From Sutterella wadsworthensis 2_1_59BFAA (lineage in GTDB: Bacteria > Pseudomonadota > Gammaproteobacteria > Burkholderiales > Burkholderiaceae_F): a stretch of 64,000 nt of DNA. Shown in pieces: positions 3,034-51,559 of the stretch (the stretch's first letter is position 1; every line of letters begins with the position of its first letter). The notes below the pieces were generated by a model. That model saw nothing but the letters and a program-made list of their open reading frames with translations. It made no database searches and had not been told where the DNA came from. The position numbers and the translations under genes are program-made. The stretch is from contig NZ_JH815516.1 in NCBI RefSeq assembly GCF_000297775.1, positions 133,226 through 197,225 on the forward strand, read 5' to 3'.

Positions 3034-6000
3034 CTAGTCCTTCCTGTATCTGTAGGCTTCGTAGCCCGCCGCTACGAGAGGAAGCCCGGGCGCCCAGTCG
3101 GGCAGCGTCGACATCAGGTGCTCCATCTTCTGGAAGGTGAACTCGTCGGTGTCGGGCGCTTCCGTGATCGCTTCGTCGTGGATGGTCAGCACGGTCTTGT
3201 AGCCCGCAGCGTCCATGCGGAGAAGCCCTTCGGAGAGGAGATCGCAAGCGACTGCTTGGGTAATGTTTTCCACGTTTTTCGCGCCGTATGACTCGATCTT
3301 TTCCCACTTGCGCGAGAACTGATTAACGCCCATATAGGTGAACGAGTCCTTGCCGACCCCCGGATTCGTCTTCGGCGACGGGTAGCAGAGCAGACGGCCG
3401 CTCGGCAGTCGGATGACGAGGAAGCTCTCAGTCCTGGTGAAGGCGACATAGCCGACGCGGACACTCTCTCGAGAGACGATGGCCTTCTGCACGGCCTGCC
3501 CGACGTTCGCCCAGAACTGGACGATCTTAGGGTTCGTCTTTCGCCACAGGCGCTTCAGGACATCACAGGCGATGAAGGCCTCGCGCTCAAGCCCTCCCGT
3601 CATCTTCTTTTCTGCAAAGAACGAGTAGCTGTCGGCAGCATCGAGCCAGTTGGCGCGCGGTGCGCTCGACTTCACGTACTCGGCCATCTCGTTGAGGTCC
3701 ATCCCATACCCAGATGCGAAACGGGCGAACGCCGCGGCTCCTCCGCCATACCCGAGCGCGAGCTCGAGCACCTTGCCGATCTGGCGCTGAGGCTTCGTCA
3801 CGTCCTCAGGCTTCACGCCGAACGCCTTGGCGTAGGCAAGCTTGTAGAGGTCGTGGCCGTGCCCCGCGTCAAAGTCTCGGAAGGCTTGAAGCTTCCACTC
3901 CTCACCGGCAAGCCAAGCGAGCACACGGCCTTCCACGTTGGAGTAGTCGGCGACGATCAGTTTCTTGCCGGCAGGTGCGATGATCTCGCCTCGGAGAAGG
4001 TTGGGAAGGATGACCGATGGGTCGTCGTAGAAGCACTCGAACGTACCGTCGCGCTGCTTGAGCACTTCGGTAGCGAAGTCGATCTCATCCTGTGAAACGG
4101 TTGGGCGAGCCAGATTTTGCAACTGCATTCCGCGGCCGGAGTTCCCTGTCACCCAGACACGACCGTTGCGACGGACCATGAAGAAACCCGTCTTCGTCTC
4201 CGCGCAATACACCGTGCCCTTGAACGCTTGCTTGCTGTGCGCTTCGGGCATAACAACTGAGCGATTGCTACCGTTTTCCCAGATGTTCAGCGTGTAGATA
4301 GTTGACCATCCTTCTTTTCGCCCCGGGCGCTCAAGCAGAATGGCGGCTCGCCCCGACATGTGCGCGAAGGCTTGTACAAAATCTGCGTTTGCGCGAACTG
4401 CCGTGCTGTACTGGAAGGAGTTCTTAGTTGAAACAGAACCGTCCCAGAAGGAAAGCTCGTCGAAGAAAACATCGGGGTCCGCGTCGAACAATGCGGGAGA
4501 GAAAACCTTTTCCTCGAAAGCTCGAAGCCATTCAGGGATATCGCTCGGATACACCGTAAAGACCGTCCCGGTTTCGTAAGTGTTTCGAGAAAACCTAATA
4601 CCTGCTGCAGACAAGAGCATTTGGCAGCGGGCTACCTTTCGTTCTTTCTTAAAGTGAAAAGTCACTCGCCCCCTACTGGAAAAATGCCCATCAGCTTGCG
4701 TCATTACCGCCACTCGAAGAGGGATCTCTTCCACGCAGAACCACGGCAATTTACGGCGCCCGTAATACGGGATACGCACTTTTCCGAGAGCGCATTCCTC
4801 TGCCGTTTTTACGCGCCATTCGCGCTTTGTCCCCCATGCGCACGCCATTCGGTGATCAGGTGTGCTGATCTGCGAAACGCGCTTAGACTCGATAGCGCAC
4901 ATCTCCCCCTCGTACGGGAAGGCCAATGCCTTTGCTTCCATGAAGTCAACGGTTTCATCCACGTTCCAGCACGCGATCTCGCCGCCTTGCCATTCGTCGA
5001 GGCGTACCCAACCGTTCGGCGTGAGCACTTCGTGATCGCCCGTCAGGCACCAGCGGCCAGTGCGTGCCGCGCCTCGGAACTGGAGCCCGCCGCGCATGCG
5101 CCCGTCCTTGTTGACGCGCCGCAGAAGCGCCTTGAACTTCTGGATCGAGGTCTTCGTAGACATGAGGCGGAGCTTCAGAAGCTCACGAACGGGCTCCGGT
5201 ACGGACGGGTCGTCCACCCGCTTCTCAAGCTCGGCCTTCGTCATCGTGTCGATCTTCCAGCCGTACTCGCGAGCCATGTAGTCGATGAGCGCATCACGCT
5301 GCGTGGCGGCACCGACTTCACCGTTCGTCTGCCGTTGAGTCTCTTCAGCAAGAATGCCCTTGCGGCGTTCAGAGAGTTCAACCGCGGCCTTGGCAAGCTC
5401 AATGTCGACTTTGACACCGCGGCGGTTGATCTCGGCATCGAGCACCTGCAGACGATGCTCCCACTCCGTGCAGTTCCACTTGGGCAGCGCCTTGAAAAGC
5501 TCACGCTCCGCTTCCACGTCCAGGCGACAGTAGTTGACGAACTTGATCCAGTCCTCGGGCTTCGTGTAGCGGTCATGACGACGCACCTTGTAGCACTCCG
5601 GCTGCGGCTTGCAGAAGAGCTGGACGAGGCGCTTGCCGTCCTTGTCCTTCGCTTTGTCGGTCGGCATGCGGAGCACGTCGCACAGGTCGCCAAGAGCGCC
5701 GGGGAGCCCGTGCTGATAGGCGATGACCATGGTGTCCACGATCATCTCGAGTGGGATGTGGTAGCCGTGGGCGGCAAGCACAACCGTGTCGAACATCATG
5801 CCGTTGTGCCAGACGATCTTGCGCTCGCCCGCCTGCACTTCCTTGAGCGCCTTGGCAAGCGCTTCGGGCATCTCTTTGGTCTGCGGGTTCGTGCAGTCCC
5901 AGACGCGGGCGGGTTCGTTGTCGATGGCATAGCCCCACAACAGAATCTCGCAGTCTTCCGCATAACGGAAGCTGCCGACTTGGGGGAGATTGAGCGGAGA

Positions 6001-6045
6001 GAAGGTCTCAAGGTCCGCGAAAAGATATTTCATGGAAGACTCCAT
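3034..6045 (-). CDS. Phage DNA polymerase, family A, with an in-frame intein
   Basis: The open frame is 1,003 codons; removal of the 303-residue intein leaves about 700 residues, a normal size for phage family A polymerases. The N-terminus carries the 3'-5' exonuclease motif FADLETFSP (DxE) near residue 10. After the intein come motif A (ADYSNVEGR, near residue 695), motif B (RQIGKVLELALGYGGG) and motif C (TIHDEA, near residue 955). The intein sits within the conserved TGRW-SGRGMQLQN segment, the counterpart of the TGRLSS region of Pol I that contacts primer-template DNA. The protein should therefore be inactive until spliced. The start at 6045 overlaps the end of the zinc-ribbon gene. It replicates the phage genome together with the primase-helicase and ssDNA-binding protein. 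Confidence 0.94.
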   Translation of the reverse strand: MESSMKYLFADLETFSPLNLPQVGSFRYAEDCEILLWGYAIDNEPARVWDCTNPQTKEMPEALAKALKEVQAGERKIVWHNGMMFDTVVLAAHGYHIPLEMIVDTMVIAYQHGLPGALGDLCDVLRMPTDKAKDKDGKRLVQLFCKPQPECYKVRRHDRYTKPEDWIKFVNYCRLDVEAERELFKALPKWNCTEWEHRLQVLDAEINRRGVKVDIELAKAAVELSERRKGILAEETQRQTNGEVGAATQRDALIDYMAREYGWKIDTMTKAELEKRVDDPSVPEPVRELLKLRLMSTKTSIQKFKALLRRVNKDGRMRGGLQFRGAARTGRWCLTGDHEVLTPNGWVRLDEWQGGEIACWNVDETVDFMEAKALAFPYEGEMCAIESKRVSQISTPDHRMACAWGTKREWRVKTAEECALGKVRIPYYGRRKLPWFCVEEIPLRVAVMTQADGHFSSRGRVTFHFKKERKVARCQMLLSAAGIRFSRNTYETGTVFTVYPSDIPEWLRAFEEKVFSPALFDADPDVFFDELSFWDGSVSTKNSFQYSTAVRANADFVQAFAHMSGRAAILLERPGRKEGWSTIYTLNIWENGSNRSVVMPEAHSKQAFKGTVYCAETKTGFFMVRRNGRVWVTGNSGRGMQLQNLARPTVSQDEIDFATEVLKQRDGTFECFYDDPSVILPNLLRGEIIAPAGKKLIVADYSNVEGRVLAWLAGEEWKLQAFRDFDAGHGHDLYKLAYAKAFGVKPEDVTKPQRQIGKVLELALGYGGGAAAFARFASGYGMDLNEMAEYVKSSAPRANWLDAADSYSFFAEKKMTGGLEREAFIACDVLKRLWRKTNPKIVQFWANVGQAVQKAIVSRESVRVGYVAFTRTESFLVIRLPSGRLLCYPSPKTNPGVGKDSFTYMGVNQFSRKWEKIESYGAKNVENITQAVACDLLSEGLLRMDAAGYKTVLTIHDEAITEAPDTDEFTFQKMEHLMSTLPDWAPGLPLVAAGYEAYRYRKD
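4141..5049 (-). other. Intein with LAGLIDADG endonuclease inside the DNA polymerase
   Basis: The intein runs from Cys333 (codon 5047-5049) to Asn635 (codon 4141-4143) of the polymerase frame, with Ser as the +1 extein residue. Block A is CLTGDHEVLTPNGWVRLDEW, block B contains TPDH (the TxxH motif), block F is KGTVYCAETKTGFFMVRRNG, and block G ends VWVTGN. The residue before the terminal Asn is Gly, not the usual His. Between blocks B and F two degenerate LAGLIDADG-type motifs appear: VAVMTQADGHF and FFDELSFWDGSV, about 100 residues apart. The element joins TGRW to SGRGMQ. Splicing follows from the family; activity and endonuclease function are not shown here. Confidence 0.93.
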
Positions 6046-14613: not shown

Positions 14614-14856
14614 ATGTCGAGTAATGACTACATCTCCCCAAAGACGGCCTTGGCTTATCTTGTCCGTTCCGGCCTTAGCAAGCGAGCAGTCGCAAAGTAC
14701 TGCGATATAACTCCAATGACGCTGTACAGGATTCAGAACGCCCCGGATGGCTTTGCTTTTCGCGAAAGCACGGTGAAGAAAATGCACGATGCGTATACGC
14801 GTAGAGAGCAGGAAATGGCGTCGGACGCCCGTGTTCGCAAGGAGCTCGGGTTATGA
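14614..14856 (+). CDS. Cro-like HTH protein
   Basis: The start at 14614 follows GGAG at a proper distance; longer frames cross the switch region. The 80-residue product contains an HTH at about residues 8-33: PKTALAYLVRSGLSKRAVAKYCDITPMTLYRIQ, followed by a basic helical end. It is divergent from the repressor and overlaps the primase start by ATGA, so it begins the rightward operon. The role as Cro is inferred from position and size; a CII-like activator is the alternative. Confidence 0.75.
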   Translation: MSSNDYISPKTALAYLVRSGLSKRAVAKYCDITPMTLYRIQNAPDGFAFRESTVKKMHDAYTRREQEMASDARVRKELGL

Positions 14857-16880
14857 CCTCGTTCATCCGTGAGAAAGGGCCGAGGCTCGTCGAGACCGGC
14901 TACCCCGTGGTTCCGTTGTCGAAAGGCAAGAAGCATCCGACCACGCCCAACTGGCAGAACTCTCCGCTCACCGCCCAGGCTTGCCGACAGCGGCCGGAGG
15001 GTGAGGGCGTCGGCGTGCTGTGTGGGTACGGCGACACTCCGATCTGCGCCATCGACGTTGACTTTCGCGGAACCGACGCGGAGGCGAAGGCGCTTTTTGA
15101 CGCCCTCTGCAAGGCTTACCCTGCGTGCGCGATGGCCGTTTACCGTGTCGGTCGCGCCCCGAAGTTTGCGCTCCTCTTCAGGGCTGAAGGCCGTTGGCTG
15201 AAGCAGACGACGCTTGAGTACGTCAAGAACGGGGACGAGTCCACGAAGTCTCAGTTGGAGGTTCTGGGCAAGGGGCAGCAGATTGTTCTGTATCACACCC
15301 ATCCGGAAACGGGGCTTCCCTACAGCTACCCGGATGCTTTTTTCTCAGGGGAGCCTGTTGACGTTCCGGCTGCCGAGCTCCCTTTGATGACGTATGAGGG
15401 CGTTCAGACGCTCTGCGACGCATTCGAAAAGTTCGTTGAGAGCAACGGGTGGGCGCCGGTCAAGGGTAGTGAGCGCACGATTGCCGTCGATGCCGATGAG
15501 GCTCTAGCGGAAGAGCTCGTACCGAAGCGCCCGATCGGGCTCACGATCGACCAAATTCGCAAGCTGATGACGCCGAGAGTGGAGTCGTGGGGCTCCTACA
15601 CCCCGTGGTACCAGGACGGCATGCGCATCCATCATGAGACGACTGGGTCGCCAGAGGGGCTTGCCCTCTGGGATGAGCTCAGTCAGCAGGCCGCCAAGTA
15701 CGACGGCTTCGAGGAAGTGGAGAAGAAGTGGGCTACGTTCAATAACCGTGGCCTGCGTTCGCTCACGATGTGGCCGATCGCTCGGGAAGCGCGAATGGTC
15801 ATCGCGAGAGCGGAGGCTTTCACGGAAGACGGGCTTCTGTGCCGTGTGCTTCGCGACTGGGGCGATCACCTCCGCTATGCGCCACAGGCAAAGCGCTGGT
15901 ATTACTTTGAGCCTGCTACGAGGCAATGGGACCGCCTCGGGCCGGAGGCTTCGATCTGCACAAGGATTCGTGACGAGATCTTCAATTCGCTTTTGACAGA
16001 GGAGATCAAGGCAGCGAGGGATGCGGGGGATGAAGCCCGAGAAAAGGCGGCGGCCAAGTTCCAGCTGCGCTGTCTCGACGGCGAGAGCGCCATGTTGGAC
16101 AAGCTCCTGAAGAACCTGACCCGCACGCGTGAGCTCTATGTTGATGAGAACGACATGGACGCGATGGAGGAGTTCATCGCGGTCGAGAACGGACTCGTGA
16201 ACCTGAAGACGAGGGATCTGGTGCCGAATGCACCAGATGCCCTGATGGTGAAGTACTGCAATGTGCGGTACGACCCGAGTGCGGACTGCCCCACCTGGCG
16301 CAAGTGTGTTTCCACATGGTTCGGAAGCGAAGAAGTGGCGTGGTACATGCAGAAGGTGCTTGGCAAGATGCTGGCAGGCCGACCGGATGAGGAGGCATTT
16401 TACCTGCTAATCGGCGACGGAGCCAACGGGAAGTCGAGTTTTCTTGAGACGATCAGCGAGGTGATGGGCGGCTACTCGAAGGCGCTGAGCGATGAGACCG
16501 TCATCGGCCGCAAAGGCACGCCGGCAAGTGGGCATCGTGCGGACATTGTGCGTCTGCAGGGTGCCAGGTTCGTGTACTGCTCCGAGACCGGGAGCGGGGA
16601 GTCTTTCCGCGCAGCGGACTTGAAGCGTATTTCCGGTGGGGACAAGATCTCCGCACGAGGCGCGTATGCCGCCGAGGTGAAGGAGTTTCCCGCCAGATTC
16701 ACGCTTTTCATTGCCACCAATTTTGCGCCGAACATGCAGGGAGCGGACAACGCCATGCGCCGCGGGAGTGTCAGGATTTCTGTGTCTGGGGAGGTTATTC
16801 CAGGGGCAGCCCAACGAGGCTGCCCTTTGTTTTTTGTGATGCAGTATGCCAGACCTGATGCGATAGCGCGGGTAGTCTAA
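14853..16880 (+). pseudogene. Primase-helicase (D5/P4 type), 5' part, split by IS256
   Basis: Phage codons run to 16763 (637 residues), after which the frame reads into the insertion sequence and stops at 16880. The N-terminal PrimPol-type domain shows GVLCGYGDTPICAIDVDF near residues 50-70. The helicase part carries Walker A GDGANGKSS near residues 522-530, then FVYCSETGSGESFRAADLKRISGGD and LFIATNFAPNMQGADNAMRR. Removing the IS and one copy of the 8-bp duplication joins AMRR to RIRLIDFPHDF, a normal P4/D5 motif, and gives an intact protein of about 805 residues with the part at 18262-18768. The lesion should abolish helicase function, so this prophage is probably replication-defective unless the element excises or a host function substitutes. 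Confidence 0.93.
16756..16763. repeat. 8-bp target-site duplication TGCGCCGC (left copy)
   Basis: TGCGCCGC occurs directly before the IS at 16756-16763 and directly after it at 18254-18261. An 8-bp duplication is normal for IS256-family transposition. Its identity on both sides shows one insertion event with no later rearrangement at these ends. Confidence 0.93.
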
Positions 16881-18253
16881 TCATACCCCTTGTCTTACTC
16901 CATGGCACCTGTAAAGCGCTCGCCAAACAGCAGAGCGAACTGAGGCATGGCAGCAGACCACCTGGCTGTAGCACGCTTCCAGGAGGTCGTGAAATTCATG
17001 ATAGCCAGGTAGATCAGCTTCCGGGCTGCGTCCTCACTAGGGAATAGAGTGCGCGTCTTGATCACCTTCCTGACAGCGCGGTTTAGCCCTTCAATCGCAT
17101 TGGTCGTATAGATCAGTGTACGGATCTCTGGCGGGAACTGGAAGAACGGGATCACTTGCGCCCAGGCGCGTTCCCAGATCTGGATGATGGCTGGATACTT
17201 CTTGCCCATGTCCGTGCTTCCAAAACGCTCCAGAGCGCGTTCTGCAGCGTCGGCATCCACTGCCTGGTAGATGGGCTTCAGCTCCTTGCATACGGCCGCC
17301 CTGTCCTTCTGAGAGACGAATGAGGTGGATGCGCGGATAAGGTGGACGATGCAGGTCTGGTGGAGGGTCTGCGGATACACGGTTTCAAGAGCCTCCGTCA
17401 TGCCCTTCAGGCCGTCCGTAACGGCGATGAGGATGTCCTCCACGCCTCGGGCCTTGAGCCCGTTGAACACGCTCGCCCAGAAGCTTGCGCCCTCGTTCTC
17501 GGCGATCCACATGCCCAGAACCTCACGCGTACCGTCCGTGCGAACACCAATCCCGAGATGAACAGCCATGTTCTTTACGGCTGCGCCGCTGCGGATTTTG
17601 ACTCGAAGGGCGTCGAAGAAAGCGACGGGATACACACTTGCGAGCGGGCGATTCTGCCACTCCCGGACGTCCTCAAGCACTCTGTCAGTAACCTTGCTGA
17701 CGTAGTCGGGGCTGATGTCCACCCCGTAGAGGTTGTCGATGAAGGCCTGGATGTCACGGGTGCTCATGCCCCTGGCGTACATGGCGATGATCTGCTCGTC
17801 CATCTTGCCGAACGAGCGGCTGTGCTTGGGCACGATGATCGGGTCGAAAGTGTTCTGTCGGTCGCGCGGAACGCTCAGCGGCAGAGGACCAAACTCGGTC
17901 TTCAGGGTCTTGTGGCTAAAGCCGTTGCGCTTGTTGGAAAGCTGGGGAAGCTCGTCAGCGGCGACCTCTTCAGGAGGCGTTTCAGTGGGCTGACAGCCTG
18001 TGAGATGGGCATCCATTTCTCCCTGCAGCATGGCTTCGACGAAGCGTTGGGAGAAGGTACGGACGGCCTCGGAGAAGGCTTCGGGGCCCAGCGGGCGGCC
18101 CGATGCTCGAAGCTCGGAAACGTACTGGTCGATATGGTTATCGAGGGGGTTGGTGGACTTCTTACGAGAATTGCGTTTGGTATTCGTGTTCATTGGATGC
18201 ACCCGATTGGCGGGCTCCGATTATCCCATGGACACAAAATTTCTGACGCTCTC
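16764..18253 (-). mobile_element. Complete IS256-family insertion sequence (copy 2)
   Basis: The element is 1,490 bp. Its ends form imperfect inverted repeats: GGGAGTGTCAGGATTTCTG at the left and, read inward on the other strand, GAGAGCGTCAGAAATTTTG at the right. It is flanked by TGCGCCGC duplications and carries one transposase gene. It splits the phage primase gene. The first 174 bases are identical to the partial copy at the window's left edge, so both insertions are probably recent. Confidence 0.95.
16895..18193 (-). CDS. IS256 (Mutator) family transposase
   Basis: The protein has 432 residues from the ATG at 18193; a GTG three codons earlier is possible. Mutator-family catalytic residues are visible: Asp in FFDALRVKI, Asp in VTDGLKGM and Glu in TTNAIEGLNR, along with the QTCIVHLIR motif between the second and third. 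The N-terminal part contains GEMDAHLTG, typical of this family. It catalyses transposition of the surrounding element in copy-and-paste fashion. The gene is intact, so the element may still be mobile. It is transcribed against the interrupted primase gene. Confidence 0.96.
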   Translation of the reverse strand: MNTNTKRNSRKKSTNPLDNHIDQYVSELRASGRPLGPEAFSEAVRTFSQRFVEAMLQGEMDAHLTGCQPTETPPEEVAADELPQLSNKRNGFSHKTLKTEFGPLPLSVPRDRQNTFDPIIVPKHSRSFGKMDEQIIAMYARGMSTRDIQAFIDNLYGVDISPDYVSKVTDRVLEDVREWQNRPLASVYPVAFFDALRVKIRSGAAVKNMAVHLGIGVRTDGTREVLGMWIAENEGASFWASVFNGLKARGVEDILIAVTDGLKGMTEALETVYPQTLHQTCIVHLIRASTSFVSQKDRAAVCKELKPIYQAVDADAAERALERFGSTDMGKKYPAIIQIWERAWAQVIPFFQFPPEIRTLIYTTNAIEGLNRAVRKVIKTRTLFPSEDAARKLIYLAIMNFTTSWKRATARWSAAMPQFALLFGERFTGAME

Positions 18254-18261
18254 TGCGCCGC

Positions 18262-18768
18262 CGCATTCGTCTGATCGACTTCCCGCACGACTTCGAGAAC
18301 GATCCCAAGTACCGCGCCATGCGCATCAAGGGGCTGTCGCGGGTGCTTAAGGCGGAGCGCTCGGGCATTTTCAATTGGCTTCTAGAGGGACGAGAGGGCG
18401 AGCTGAAGGAGGGCCTGGCCGTGCCGAAGTCGGTGCAGGACGCGTCGAACGCCTATGTCGACTCGCACGATCTTGTCACCCAGTGGTTCGATGAGCGGTG
18501 CGAGATCGGGCGCCCGGAAAAGGAGAACGATCCGTCGACGAAAGAGTTGTTCGAGAGCTATTGCCAATGGCTTGAGAGCATGAACGAGCCGACGTCCGAT
18601 GCGCGGCCTAGGACGTTGACCGAGCGGCTGAAGAAACTCCTTACCAGGAGGGGGGCGTCGTTTCGATTTCGCAAGAGTCACGGCAAAACCCTGGCAGTTG
18701 GCATTCGACTGAAGAGTGCCGTCGACCTAGACCAGCCCGCTCAAGACGACTTCGAAGACATTCCCTAA
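18262..18768 (+). pseudogene. Primase-helicase, 3' part after the IS
   Basis: The frame resumes directly after the right target duplication with RIRLIDFPHDFENDPKYRA, the arginine-finger region of D5/P4-type helicases, and continues for 168 residues to a TAA at 18768. The rest is a winged-helix-like C-terminal domain (PSTKELFESYCQWLESMNEP) and an acidic tail ending DDFEDIP, like that of the ssDNA-binding protein (PDFTDIP). It has no start codon of its own at the junction; an internal ATG at 18319 gives a short product that would lack the ATPase core. Confidence 0.9.
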
Positions 18769-18829: not shown

Positions 18830-20599
18830 ATGAATGAACTGTCAGACGACATTGCCGAAGAGCTGGCGCGAGGGTACGACGACCCTCTGCGCTTCGTGCT
18901 TTGGGCGTTCCCGTGGGGCGAGTCGCCCGAGCTGTCGATCGTACCGCTTCCCGAGCCTTGGGCTTCGAAGTACCCGGGGAGCAAGTTCGGGCCGGACAAG
19001 TGGGCGTGTGAGGTCTTGGACGAGATCGGGCAGCAGGTGCGCGCAAACGGTTTCGACGGGATCCATGCCGTCAAGCCCATACGTCTTGCCGTTGCGTCAG
19101 GCCACGGCATCGGTTCGGATATGTGATGAGCCGTCTGAGTCCTTTTCCGCAGTGGTTCTGCGGGGTACCGAAAGGTGCTAACGGGGAAGCCTCTCTGAGG
19201 TAATCCCGTGGGAAGCCCGAACGATCGGGAACCTGTATCGACTATTCCTCGGAAGGGAAGTAGGGCTGAATTAACCTCAGCTCGAAACGGGACTCCCCGC
19301 AATGCGGGTAAGAGATAGTCAGTGCCTCTGGCGACAGGGGATAAAACGAAATCATTTTTGACAGCCTGCCTCGTGATCTGGATCCTCGCCACTCGTCCGA
19401 ACTGTAAGGGCGTAGTGACGGCGAACACTGCGGCGCAGTTGAAGACGAAGACCTTCGCGGAAATCTCGAAATGGCTGCGCCGATCCATTGTCGCCGACAT
19501 GTTCGAGATCAAGGCGGAGTCCATCGAAGCGAAGGAAGCTCCTGAGTCGTGGCGCGTCGACGCGCAGACGTGTAAGGAAGAAAACTCCGAATCGTTTGCG
19601 GGCCAGCATTCTGCGTCCTCTACGTCCTTTTATGTAATGGATGAGGCCTCAGCCGTCCCCGACGTGATTTGGGAAGTGGCGGAAGGCGGTCTGACCGACG
19701 GTGAGCCGATGATGTTCGTGTTCGGCAATCCGACGAGAAACACAGGGCGTTTCCGCGAATGCTTCGGGAAGCGCAAGAACGTCTGGAGCACTCGTCAGAT
19801 TGACAGCCGAAGTGTGTTCATCACGAACAAGGAGCAGATGGAGGAGTGGCGCAAGGAGTATGGCGAGGACTCGGACTTCTTCAAGGTGCGTGTGAAGGGT
19901 GAGTTCCCGAGTCAGTCCGACAAGCAGTTCATCCCGTCGGGCCTTGTGATGGAGGCGGCGATGCGAGACATGCCGCACAACGGGGCGACGTGCGCGATCA
20001 TCGGCGTGGACGTGGCGCGCTTCGGTGATGACGACAGCGTGATCTACACGCGCATCGGCAGGGGTTGGCTCCCGATCAAGCGCTTCAAGGGGCTCTCCAC
20101 AACGCAACTCGTGGCCAAGGTGAAGCAGCACTTCGACGAAGTGAGGGCGCTCGGGTTCCCGAGAGACCGCATCTACATCAACGTGGACGAGGGCGGTGTT
20201 GGCGGCGGTCCGAAGGACCAGCTTCGCGACGACGGGTACCCCGTGCGCGGCATCCAGTTCGGTGCGGGTGCGGACGATCCGAAGACGTACGCCCGTCTCC
20301 GTGAAGAGATGTGGGGGAGGATGAAGCTCTGGCTGATGGACGGCGGGACGATCCCGAACGATCAGGGCCTGATCGACGACTTGACGGCGCCCGAGTACGA
20401 CATCCTGCCTGGCGGGCAGATCAAGCTCGAGTCGAAGAAGGACATGAAGAAGCGCGGCATGCCGTCTCCAGACAGCGCAGACGCGCTTGCGCTTACCTTC
20501 GCATACAGGATCGAGGAGTACATCCCGTTCGCGGAGCTCGAGTACCGCAACCGCAGATCGGGGAGGCGGGACTACGACCCCTTCGCCTGTCTGAAGTAA
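18830..20599 (+). CDS. Terminase large subunit, two exons split by a group I intron
   Basis: Exon 1 is 18830-19114 and exon 2 is 19349-20599; joined they encode 511 residues, a normal size for phage large terminases. The splice restores GHGIG-KSFLT, the Walker A motif, with Gly95 from exon 1 and Lys96 from exon 2. Walker B is FYVMDEAS, with Asp193 and Glu194. The nuclease domain starts with IIGVDVARFGDDDS (Asp316) and ends with an SPDSADALALTFAY motif. Without splicing translation stops at 19124-19126 after three intron codons, giving a dead fragment; an unrelated ATG at 19322 inside the intron opens the frame of exon 2. The protein is the packaging motor and headful nuclease. It starts after AGGA nine bases upstream. 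Confidence 0.93.
19115..19348 (+). ncRNA. Group I intron (subgroup IA-like), 234 nt, no ORF
   Basis: Exon 1 ends in U (GGU) and the intron ends in G, the group I rule at both splice sites. P1 can form between exon CGGU and intron GCCG near 19131. A perfect P2 hairpin is CCGCAG/CTGCGG at 19147-19163. The core GCTAACGGGGAAGCCTC and TAATCCCGTG (19178-19210) closely resembles the P4-P5 core of the T4 td intron. P5 is CCTC/GAGG and P6 is CCCGA/TCGGG. P7 is exact, GACTAT at 19240-19245 with ATAGTC at 19315-19320. P8 is CCCGC/GCGGG at about 19296-19308. There is no homing endonuclease gene. The call is strong from structure; self-splicing is not tested. Confidence 0.94.
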
Positions 20600-44732: not shown

Positions 44733-46052
44733 TCACATGGAGCGCAGCTCCGCGTTAACCCGAATTAGAGTGTCCAGGGTGCGTGTGATCCTCGTAGCGC
44801 ATGACGGAACTTTAGCCGCAATGCGCCGCCATCTCGTTGCCGAAATGGACTTCTCGTACTCCCTGAGGAAGTACCGAGCTCCGATGTTGTACGAAGCTGA
44901 CAGGTCGCACGAATAGCGCTTCCCCGTCTGGAACGTACACATGCTGTAGTTGTCCGTGTCTCTCGTAACCTCACCGGTTCCGTCAAAGGCCAGCTTCGAT
45001 GTATTCCAAGCACACACGCGACGAATGCGGGTACCGCAACGATGTGCCTGGTGCTCCACGATCTGCTGGACATACTTGGCACGCCAGTGATGAAGCCGCT
45101 GACGCTTGGAGCCACGTTTGCGCCCGGCGAGATCGAGGTGTTCCATGACGATGACGTCGACCTTGAACTCGTTTGCAACCGTCATGATGAAGCCTGCCGT
45201 CTTGACGGCGATGTCCTTGTTGACCCCCTTTGCTCTCGCCCAAAGCCTCGGCATGCGTTTTGCGCCGTTGCTTTGAGCTTTCCTGATGCGCCGCAAGGCA
45301 CGTTCCAAAGAGTCTTGCTCTACCGGCAGCTTCTTAAAACGTCTGCCGATGATAGTGCCCTTTGAATCCATGACCGAGCACACGCATGCATTGTTGATCC
45401 CAAGATCAACGCCAAGGACGCGCTGCGTGTCAAGAGACACCTTATCCAGAATAACCTTCTCCTCAAAAGAGAAGTCCAGATACCATTTCTTCCCGCGCTT
45501 TCTCAATGCCGGCGACAATTCGTTGCGGGTAGCGCAATGAAGTGCAATGTAATCGACATCGTGCTTGTCGAGCTCGACATCAACCCAGTCCCAAGTATTG
45601 CGAATGCGAACTTTGAGTTTCACGCTGTTGCGTCCGGCTCTGATGAACGTATTATCGCGGTACATGACCGGAAAGCTTCTGCCGGCCTTCGGCAGACCGG
45701 GCTGCCGGCCCTTTTGCCCCGGCTTCGCTTTCCATTGAGCCAGATGCGTTTGATACGACGACACCTGTCCGTATGCCGCCATGATGGCGGCTCGGCGAAG
45801 GTAGCACGGAAATTTCACGAAGTCGTGGCAGAAGTTGTAAGGCGTCATCAGACGCTTTTTCGTACGAACGCTCAGACCTTCGGCAACACGAATGCAATCG
45901 TTGGCACGACTGAGATTGGCGAAGTGAGTATTCCAATTCGCAATCACGAGTTCGATGAAGTAATCCACGGCGTGGCGATACACCTCAACCGTGTCGTCAA
46001 AGACACGGTTGAAGTTGCGCAAACGCACGGAGTAAGTGGACGTGATCTTCAT
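44733..46052 (-). CDS. tnpB: TnpB-like RuvC nuclease, IS605 OrfB family
   Basis: The start at 46052 gives MKITSTYSVRLRNFNRVFDDTVEVYRHAV and 439 residues. RuvC motifs are present: LGVDLGINNA (Asp), IVMEHLDL (Glu) and CDLSASYNIGARY (Asp), so the nuclease is predicted active. The zinc-ribbon region is unusual. Instead of two CxxC pairs it reads RVCAWNTSKLAFDG, then MCTFQTGKRYSC, leaving too few cysteines for the usual ribbon. TnpB proteins are RNA-guided nucleases that keep their element in the population. The 3' end and following 90 bases would encode the guide RNA scaffold. No tnpA is nearby. Confidence 0.88.
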   Translation of the reverse strand: MKITSTYSVRLRNFNRVFDDTVEVYRHAVDYFIELVIANWNTHFANLSRANDCIRVAEGLSVRTKKRLMTPYNFCHDFVKFPCYLRRAAIMAAYGQVSSYQTHLAQWKAKPGQKGRQPGLPKAGRSFPVMYRDNTFIRAGRNSVKLKVRIRNTWDWVDVELDKHDVDYIALHCATRNELSPALRKRGKKWYLDFSFEEKVILDKVSLDTQRVLGVDLGINNACVCSVMDSKGTIIGRRFKKLPVEQDSLERALRRIRKAQSNGAKRMPRLWARAKGVNKDIAVKTAGFIMTVANEFKVDVIVMEHLDLAGRKRGSKRQRLHHWRAKYVQQIVEHQAHRCGTRIRRVCAWNTSKLAFDGTGEVTRDTDNYSMCTFQTGKRYSCDLSASYNIGARYFLREYEKSISATRWRRIAAKVPSCATRITRTLDTLIRVNAELRSM

Positions 46053-46292
46053 CGTTGCATGGCGATGGGTTGGCGAGAATACTCCGTATGGTATCAAGCA
46101 TCACACAACCTGACGCAATTAATCGACAATTCTATGAGCTCAAGCAAAAGTGCTGCATTAGAATCGCAAAATGATCCTGTGATTTTGCGCTCTTTTTACT
46201 ATTTAATACCTGTGCAAGAAGGGATTTGTGAACTTATCCACTGGATCATCTTGAATAACTTGAGATTGACTGACTTCGTCAGCCCCGCTTGA

Positions 46293-49377: not shown

Positions 49378-49906
49378 CTTAGACGTGTTTTGCAAAGGAG
49401 TTGGACTAAATTCCAATATAACATGGGTCTGCATGGGTGGTTGGCTTTGGAGCCGTTCAGTTGCTTCTGTTTGTTCCAAGTCGGCATTCAGGTGGTGTTC
49501 GGGTCTGGGTTGCGCAAGCTTGGAAACGAAGCGGCCTTCCGTCTGCAGAGCTAACGTGCGAACGAAAGGCCGCGGAGGAGTCTTCAGATGTCGGCGCAAG
49601 CCTTATGCGGCGGCGAGTTCGCGGCCGACGAGCCAACCCCAGGTGGCGATCCTTCGCCTGCACGATACGAAGCGCTCGCTCGCCGATGCGCTTCTTGAGG
49701 GCGCCGACATGTCGAGCCGTCTCTCGAAGGAGGAGCTCCTCAAGCTCCTTTCCGACCAAGGCTGACAACCTCAGACACATGGCGATGGACGCCCCGCCGA
49801 ACGACATGCGTTCGGCGGGCGCAGACGAACACGAACGGAGAAATCGATGGGCGATGCGACCTCGACGACGCTTGACCTCTCAGACCTGACGGACGTTGAG
49901 CCTAAA
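49378..49906. other. Debris between the DUF4143 gene and a TnpB remnant
   Basis: Plus-strand coding fragments are visible. One ends SLADALLEGADMSSRLSKEELLKLLSDQG at 49765, resembling the tail of a small regulatory or antitoxin-like protein. Another begins at 49847 after ACGGAGAAATCG and reads MGDATSTTLDLSDLTDVEP before running into the TnpB end hairpin at 49908. Both look like truncated host genes. Confidence 0.5.
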
Positions 49907-50935
49907 CAACCTCTCCACTGAAGTGGGAGGGTTTCGATACAGTCGAGGCTTTTCGCCTCGGGGTTGCCCCCGATTTGCCGTCACTCCGACCACGAAATCC
50001 TTGCTGACGCAGCCCTTGTACGGCAAGGGACGGAATCCCCCGCCGTCGGAACCTCCCGAACTCGCGCTCGGTGATTCCTTCTCGGGCTTGAATGACTGCG
50101 ACACCGGCGTCAAGCCATGCTGTTACTCCGGCTGGAACGGCTTCACGGATCCGTTCCGGGGCGTAGGCTTGATTTTCAAGATCTGCGTACAACAGGTTCA
50201 GACAAGCCGCCGCATCGCGGTCGATCCGTCGATCGTCGTCATCTTCACCCAGTCGCGCGCGGCGCTCCCAAAGTTCGTGCTTGACAAACGTGTCCGTCAG
50301 CAGATTGTGCTGAGAGGGCTTGAGTTTCTTTGGCGATACGACTTCCACCAACAAACCGGCGCTTTCAGCCTTGCTTGCGAGTTGAGCGTATAACGCTGCC
50401 GGCGCATGTCGCCCGATGGCCTTGCCGAAGCGTCCCTTCTGGAACGCCTTATAGCTGTTGTCCTCCACAATGATGTGACCTGCATGGCCGAGAAGCCGGT
50501 TGCAGACTTCACCGTGCTCGCGTTTTCGCGTGGCGGCGCAAAGACGAAGCATCTCCGCAAGTTCCGACCGGAGCTTTTCGTAGCGTTTCGAGAAACGCCA
50601 CTGAAGCCTTCCGGACTTCACCTTCAGAGACTTGTGCTTCTTGCCGTGACGAACCACCTCAACCGTTTCGTAGTTGTCGGGATTCGTCGCTTGGCGGCTG
50701 CGCTCCATCGCACGCTGAAGCTTGCGCACGGCACGGTGATCCGTGTCCGCGCTTGGCGCAATCTGCACTTTGGCAATTGTCCCGTCCTCAGTCGCATAGG
50801 TGAGCGCCCCGAGTCCCAGATCAATGGCCATGCGCAGATCCTTGCCGGCGTAGGCGTGCTTCAGAGGTCCCTGCTCCGGGAGCAGTGGACGACTGCACAG
50901 ACGCCATCCTCCGTTGCCTCTTCGGCATGCAGTCA
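49902..50935 (-). pseudogene. TnpB-like transposase remnant, N-terminus missing
   Basis: The C-terminal part of an OrfB/TnpB protein is intact: MAIDLGLGALTYATEDG (RuvC Asp), HIIVEDNSYKAFQKGRFG (Glu) and DDRRIDRDAAACLNLL (Asp). The first part of the protein is absent: homology stops near 50935, where the duplicated yqhA upstream region begins. As in the other TnpB, the usual CxxC zinc-ribbon cysteines are lacking. The stop lies inside an end hairpin. It belongs to a different subgroup from the tnpB at 44733. Confidence 0.8.
49908..49933. repeat. End hairpin of the truncated TnpB element
   Basis: ACCTCTCCACT pairs with AGTGGGAGGGT around GA, with two G-U pairs if transcribed. It overlaps the tnpB stop, as is usual for right ends of this family. 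Confidence 0.65.
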
Positions 50936-50988
50936 TTCGGAAGGGACGCACGAAGAAGGCTGCATGTTGTAAAATCAGCGGACCTCGT

Positions 50989-51020
50989 GCTATCGGCTCA
51001 TGTATGTCGATAGCTTTTTT
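50989..51020 (+). terminator. Terminator or attenuator hairpin just before yqhA
   Basis: GCTATCG pairs with CGATAGC around a 12-base loop and TTTTTT follows, 27 bases before the yqhA start. The same arrangement precedes yqhA copy 1, so it was part of the duplicated unit. It may end upstream transcripts or act in a leader. Confidence 0.75.
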
Positions 51021-51046
51021 CAGACTTCGTTCATACGGGACGACCC

Positions 51047-51559
51047 ATGGAATCGCTTTTCGAAAAACTCTTTTACAGCGCGCGCTGGATTCTTGCGCCG
51101 CTCTTTCTCGGCCTTTCGCTTGCGCTTCTGGCACTTGCGCTCAAGTTCTTTCAGGAGGTCTGGCACGTGCTGCCGCACGTCTTCGAGCTCTCTGAGTCCG
51201 ATCTCATCCTCTCGCTTCTCTCGATGGTCGACATGGGCCTTGTGGGCGGCCTGATCGTGATGGTCATGTACTCTTCCTACGAGAACTTCGTCTCCAGGCT
51301 CGACCTTGACGAAAAGGATTCGGAGCGCCTCGGCTGGCTCGGCAAGATGGACGCAGGCAGCCTCAAGAACAAGGTGGCGGCGAGCATCGTGGCGATCTCC
51401 TCGATCCACCTTCTGAGGATCTTCATGAACATCAGCACGATCGAGAACGACAAGCTGCTCTGGTATGTGATCGTCCATTTGACCTTCGTTCTCTCAGCTC
51501 TCGTGATGTGCTGGATCGACCTGCTGACGCGCAAGGCACACCAGCACGACGGGCACTGA
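51047..51559 (+). CDS. yqhA: YqhA / TIGR00645 (UPF0114) family membrane protein
   Basis: The 170-residue protein matches the UPF0114 family in length and motifs: [33 protein letters not shown], then [22 protein letters not shown] and [16 protein letters not shown]. Three to four membrane segments are predicted at about residues 12-35, 55-78, 103-125 and 133-155. It acts in the inner membrane and its function is unknown. It has a terminator after its stop at 51598-51634. A broken duplicate lies about 4.1 kb upstream. Confidence 0.93.

Follow-up and report, generated by a model that had tools for sequence, protein, structure and literature searches.

A compact phage-type group I intron, predicted to self-splice, interrupts the Walker A codons of a prophage terminase gene in Sutterella wadsworthensis

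A prophage of the gut bacterium Sutterella wadsworthensis 2_1_59BFAA was found to carry an interrupted gene for the terminase large subunit (terL) in the window analysed here (64,000 nucleotides of contig NZ_JH815516.1). The interrupting sequence of 234 nt is very probably a group I intron of a common, IA-like phage family, self-splicing and devoid of an endonuclease gene, located where the codon for Gly95 meets that for Lys96. Observed are the insert itself, relatives with an empty site, a full core with covariation and membership of the RNA family. The insert adds a further compact, endonuclease-free example to a well-known type of phage intron and does not constitute a new kind of element.

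The upstream terL reading frame (18830-19126) closes with SGHGIGSDM and a stop codon three codons past GHGIG, while the downstream frame reads DKTKSFLT and ends at position 20599. This confirmed on the sequence what a first-pass annotation had described, namely a frame that closes behind GHGIG and resumes at KSFLT after 234 nt, with U at the 5' site (U19114) and G at the intron end (G19348). Viral contigs and bacterial genomes supplied about 85 homologues for which both flanks were mapped on the fetched loci, and in these TerL was uninterrupted across GHGIGKS, including the nearest homologue (72% identity, Parasutterella muris), where the site is empty. The piece to be excised for a match to these homologues is 19115-19348, exactly 234 nt between GGU and AAA. 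This leaves a 5' exon (18830-19114, forward strand, as are all intron and exon features below) of 95 aa ending in ASGHGIG, the first part of Walker A, and a 3' exon (19349-20599) whose first residues are KSFLT with the Walker A lysine Lys96; the predicted junction of the ligated exons is GGCATCGGT followed by AAATCATTT. The placement in Walker A and the joining of Gly95 to Lys96, both proposed earlier, are thus supported by the comparison with homologues, with splicing itself the predicted step. The spliced protein matched the PHROG terminase large subunit family phrog_2 (E 7.9e-43) and shows both Walker A (GHGIGKS) and Walker B (FYVMDEAS) of a terminase large subunit; neither half alone had a match in Pfam. 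An identical break was seen only in records of the same genome or contig (L001, L002, L135), and a search for other introns with the same P4 core right after GHGIG returned the same contig alone.

Neither frame is interrupted, and a GTG start is available to the second at 19322, as might be expected if terL were a true split gene that encodes two polypeptides and is naturally divided within the P-loop. However, this start falls within the intron, the P-loop lysine would be parted from its glycines, no homologue examined was split at this point without an insert, and the intervening RNA matched a group I core (E 5e-26). We consider a split gene extremely improbable.

The interpretation of positions 19115-19348 as a group IA-type intron draws on the homologue gap, a covariance model and the predicted fold. 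In the minimum free-energy fold and by sequence, P1 (19111-19133) is formed by the exon-intron boundary CGGU/UCG (19111-19117) and the internal guide UGAGCCG (19127-19133), with a U19114.G19130 wobble at the 5' splice site, and an in-frame UGA stop (19124-19126) sits in its loop upstream of the guide. The 5' strand of P3 (GAGUCCUUUUC, 19137-19147) pairs at 11 of 11 positions with its partner at 19284-19295 (GAAACGGGACUC), a helix that was also examined in a fixed-register test (below). Between P3 and P4 lie two hairpins common to the phage family (19148-19178; CGCAG/CUGCG and GUACC/GGUGC), recovered by the fold and as covariation helices 2 and 3, the former of which (19148-19152/19158-19162) is the hairpin first labelled P2. 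P4 (19181-19209; ACGGG at 19181-19185 and CCCGU at 19205-19209) encloses P5 (CCUC at 19190-19193 and GAGG at 19197-19200), as identified by the covariance model and the P4-P5 pattern. It is followed by P6 (19216-19229; CCCGA/UCGGG), placed by the fold and by relatives, many of which carry their endonuclease gene in its loop. The 5' strand of P7 (GACUAU, 19240-19245; partner AUAGUC at 19315-19320), found by the covariance model, is invariant in 11 relatives. P7.1 (19246-19258; covariation helix 8, 100% paired) and P7.2 (19263-19283; GGGCUGA/UCAGCUC, covariation helix 9, 98.7% paired) lie between this strand and the 3' strand of P3, which is the arrangement of subgroup IA. P8 (19296-19308; CCCGC at 19296-19300, GCGGG at 19304-19308) was recovered by fold and covariation, J8/7 with the 3' strand of P7 (UAAGAGAUAGUC, 19309-19320) is conserved in the aligned relatives, and P9 (19325-19340; CCUCUG-GCGA-CAGGGG, fold and covariation helix 12) has a GNRA loop. 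Judged from sequence only, a P10 is possible between AUCA of the 3' exon (19351-19354) and UGAU at 19124-19127, in register after two mismatches. The intron ends in GGAUAAAACG, ten bases that recur at the equivalent point of a relative (L203).

Folding the 234 nt recovered the group I helices, with P1, P3, P4-P6, P7.1, P7.2, P8 and P9 in the correct order. Fold, covariation and covariance model together gave the core order P3-P4-P5-P6-P7-P3'-P8-P7' with the P3/P7 pseudoknot, and P1 has its U.G wobble, the last intron base is G and excision restores the host gene (GHGIG/KS, as in the continuous homologues). The perfect P2, P7 and P8 helices and the core resembling P4-P5 of the T4 td intron, as claimed in the first-pass annotation, were all found at their positions.

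We found the P4-P5 pattern TAACGGGGAARCY..GGYAATCCCGTG in at least 120 viral contigs, and in many of these the P6 loop holds an endonuclease-like frame. We aligned the core of 11 compact phage relatives, leaving out the window intron, and built a covariance model from this alignment. The model scored the insert at 105.2 bits (E 5.1e-26 in 120 kb), and this was the sole match in the 2.7-Mb genome. The same model found the T4 introns td (44.5 bits) and nrdB (27.5 bits) and the phiEa1h DNA polymerase intron (37.0 bits), which links the family to introns that have been proven experimentally. Introns of Enterococcus phage EF1 and of Vibrio phage henriette 12B8 were picked up too, and the two terL introns of Shewanella phage KASIA gave weak matches. 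Matches were present in 24 of 300 genomes of the order, the host genome counted, and two of the five further bacterial loci that were checked exceeded Rfam's own group I cut-off.

In the alignment of the 11 relatives 87% of cells were paired for the proposed structure versus 72% in shuffles, and double-change cells numbered 114 versus 37 expected; no shuffle out of 500 did as well. This signal collapsed when the structure was shifted by a single base. P3 was tested separately in a fixed register because MAFFT mis-registered it in some rows; here 129 of 143 cells in 13 introns were paired, with none of 20000 shuffles as good. P7, P4 and P5 are invariant and therefore uninformative by covariation, and the agreement in P4-P5 is partly built in because the search that yielded the relatives used a pattern from the P4-P5 of the window intron. 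P3, P7, P7.1, P7.2, P8 and the T4 matches are independent of that pattern. In a simple rejoining test three relatives (L203, L157 and L207) rejoined to open frames at sites of the U..G type, and three others (L231, L164 and L223) failed to do so. When the intron was compared with phages by BLASTN, just short, weak core matches appeared, all of them in unannotated stretches later called as introns by the model or adjoining such introns. Taken together, the comparison with homologues, covariation and a model free of the window sequence support the identification as a group I intron.

A match to the Rfam group I model RF00028 had been proposed as a check, and its absence counted among the refuting outcomes. 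Nothing useful was found in the insert by this model at the gathering cut-off or at E 10, but the check proved invalid, since proven introns of T4 and other phages fail it as well: in our control the cut-off of 50 bits was missed by nrdB (35.7 bits) and phiEa1h (34.2 bits), and even at E 10 there was no match to td. The miss is therefore uninformative. The RF00028 gathering score is the usual criterion for annotation and not a defining property of group I introns, and a published account that warns about Rfam's phage coverage agrees with our result (PMC11878797). In the same order, we noted that the phage-trained model found compact cores of about 112 nt (L302-L310) in many genomes; for L302-L304, Rfam at its cut-off reported none of them.

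Just upstream of terL an IS256/Mutator-type transposase gene (16895-18202, reverse strand) splits a phage D5-like primase gene, of which the parts at 14853-16880 and 18319-18768 (forward strand) flank the transposase and match phrog_1156 at positions 12-678 upstream and 702-836 downstream of it. The prophage may thus be replication-defective or not viable. The statement in the first-pass annotation that no packaging motor can do without splicing would require a live prophage, and given this possible inactivity it has to be regarded as unproven. The split primase would also agree with a decayed group I intron that has lost splicing, within a dead prophage whose terL is a pseudogene, as would the fact that introns lacking an endonuclease gene can be remnants. 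Nevertheless, all core helices are intact, with P3 paired throughout, the P1 U.G and the terminal G are present, both exons are open, and further downstream the genes for portal, capsid and tail have open frames as well. We regard decay as unlikely and a splicing-competent intron as the better reading.

No endonuclease reading frame was detected in the 234 nt, in line with the earlier claim of an intron without an endonuclease gene. No second copy came to light when the own genome and 66 other genomes of the family were searched by DNA sequence and with the model. Separately, a family A DNA polymerase gene in the window (3034-6045, reverse strand) contains an apparent in-frame intein (GRWCLTGDHEVLTPNG .. 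WVTGNSGRG), in which neither Pfam nor NCBIfam detected an endonuclease domain. The idea that the intein's enzyme moves the intron was dropped, as the intein lies at an unrelated site and nothing ties it to the terL site.

A further possibility, an IStron or other transposon-borne element instead of a homing-type phage intron, could be suggested by TnpB-like reading frames at 44733-46097 and 49902-51134 (both reverse strand). Both of these genes for TnpB-like RNA-guided nucleases match NF040570 below its curated cut-off. They lie, however, 25-31 kb away, the 234-nt insert consists of the ribozyme only and ends at the splice sites, and it is single-copy in the genome; intron copies joined to transposon ends were not found in the own genome and the 66 family genomes. 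We judged such an element very improbable and dropped this reading, as we did the split gene.

Introns in terL are already well known from phages LL-H, Moonbeam, SIOphi, 2972 and KASIA. The closest precedent for the position is terL intron 1 of Shewanella phage KASIA (MZ568826), for which RT-PCR showed splicing in infected cells (PMC8541194). Comparison with the uninterrupted gene of Colwellia phage 9A showed that it splits CGRAY/GKT and is thus, like the window intron, a group I intron within the Walker A of terL, a placement not remarked upon in those parts of the literature on such introns that were consulted. It differs in its unrelated TerL, its site 4 nt further upstream, its codon phase, its greater length, an HNH gene in the same locus and its weak match to our model (15.3 bits). 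T4 td and nrdB share the P4-P5 core with the window intron and were both found by the model, and td also shares the layout of P7, P7.1, P7.2, P3', P8 and P7'. They are located in other host genes, and td carries the I-TevI gene, which the window intron does not have, and has no equivalent of the two P3-P4 hairpins. Group I introns are also described in terL of Lactobacillus phage LL-H and Bacillus phage Moonbeam (PMC4299906), those of Moonbeam with endonuclease genes in contrast to the window intron, of SIOphi, spliced in vitro and in vivo, and phiAGATE, spliced in vivo (PMC11878797), and of Streptococcus phage 2972 (PMC6356513). We additionally noted introns of the same family in terL of other phages (L179, L198, L212), at sites other than Walker A and some with endonuclease frames.

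Inteins can also occupy this loop. The mycobacteriophage inteins TerL1-a/b, which differ from the window intron in relying on protein and not RNA splicing, insert in the P-loop Walker A of TerL, with TerL1-a between Lys and Thr (PMC5050341). In L060 (2690-5275), a homologue of the window TerL, GHGIGKS is interrupted between Lys and Ser by an intein of about 340 aa, at a distance of one codon from the site of the window intron; this intein appears to start with Ala rather than Cys or Ser. This adds one more case in which the P-loop of TerL has been entered by an RNA intron and, at no more than one codon's distance, by an intein in a homologue.

GGU ends the 5' exon in 24 of 50 P1 helices of the family, as predicted automatically, and a guide of this kind in about half of them would favour glycine codons. 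It is therefore conceivable, though doubtful, that the family's guide reads a GGU glycine codon and so repeatedly settles in glycine-rich nucleotide-binding loops. The sites in question are the Walker A of TerL in the window, a GFGIG-type loop (L207) and the DPDG motif of a topoisomerase-like gene (L157). We present this preference as a lead and not as a result.

From the sequence we infer splicing in vivo at exactly the bases given above. The 5' exon end CGGU would pair with the internal guide of the transcript in P1, with U.G at the junction, and a guanosine bound at P7 would cleave the RNA behind U19114. In the second step the released exon would attack the junction behind G19348, so that GGU is ligated to AAA and the GHGIGKS motif is re-formed. 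In an unspliced transcript translation would halt at the UGA (19124-19126), and because this codon lies inside the P1 loop before the guide, the ribozyme core would stay free of ribosomes.

A structurally complete phage group I intron is here overlooked by the standard Rfam model, and genes affected in this way may often be annotated as broken. If the intron is spliced, the ATP-binding lysine of the packaging motor meets its loop only after splicing, and packaging would then be gated by ribozyme activity and GTP, as already proposed for other phage introns (PMC11878797).
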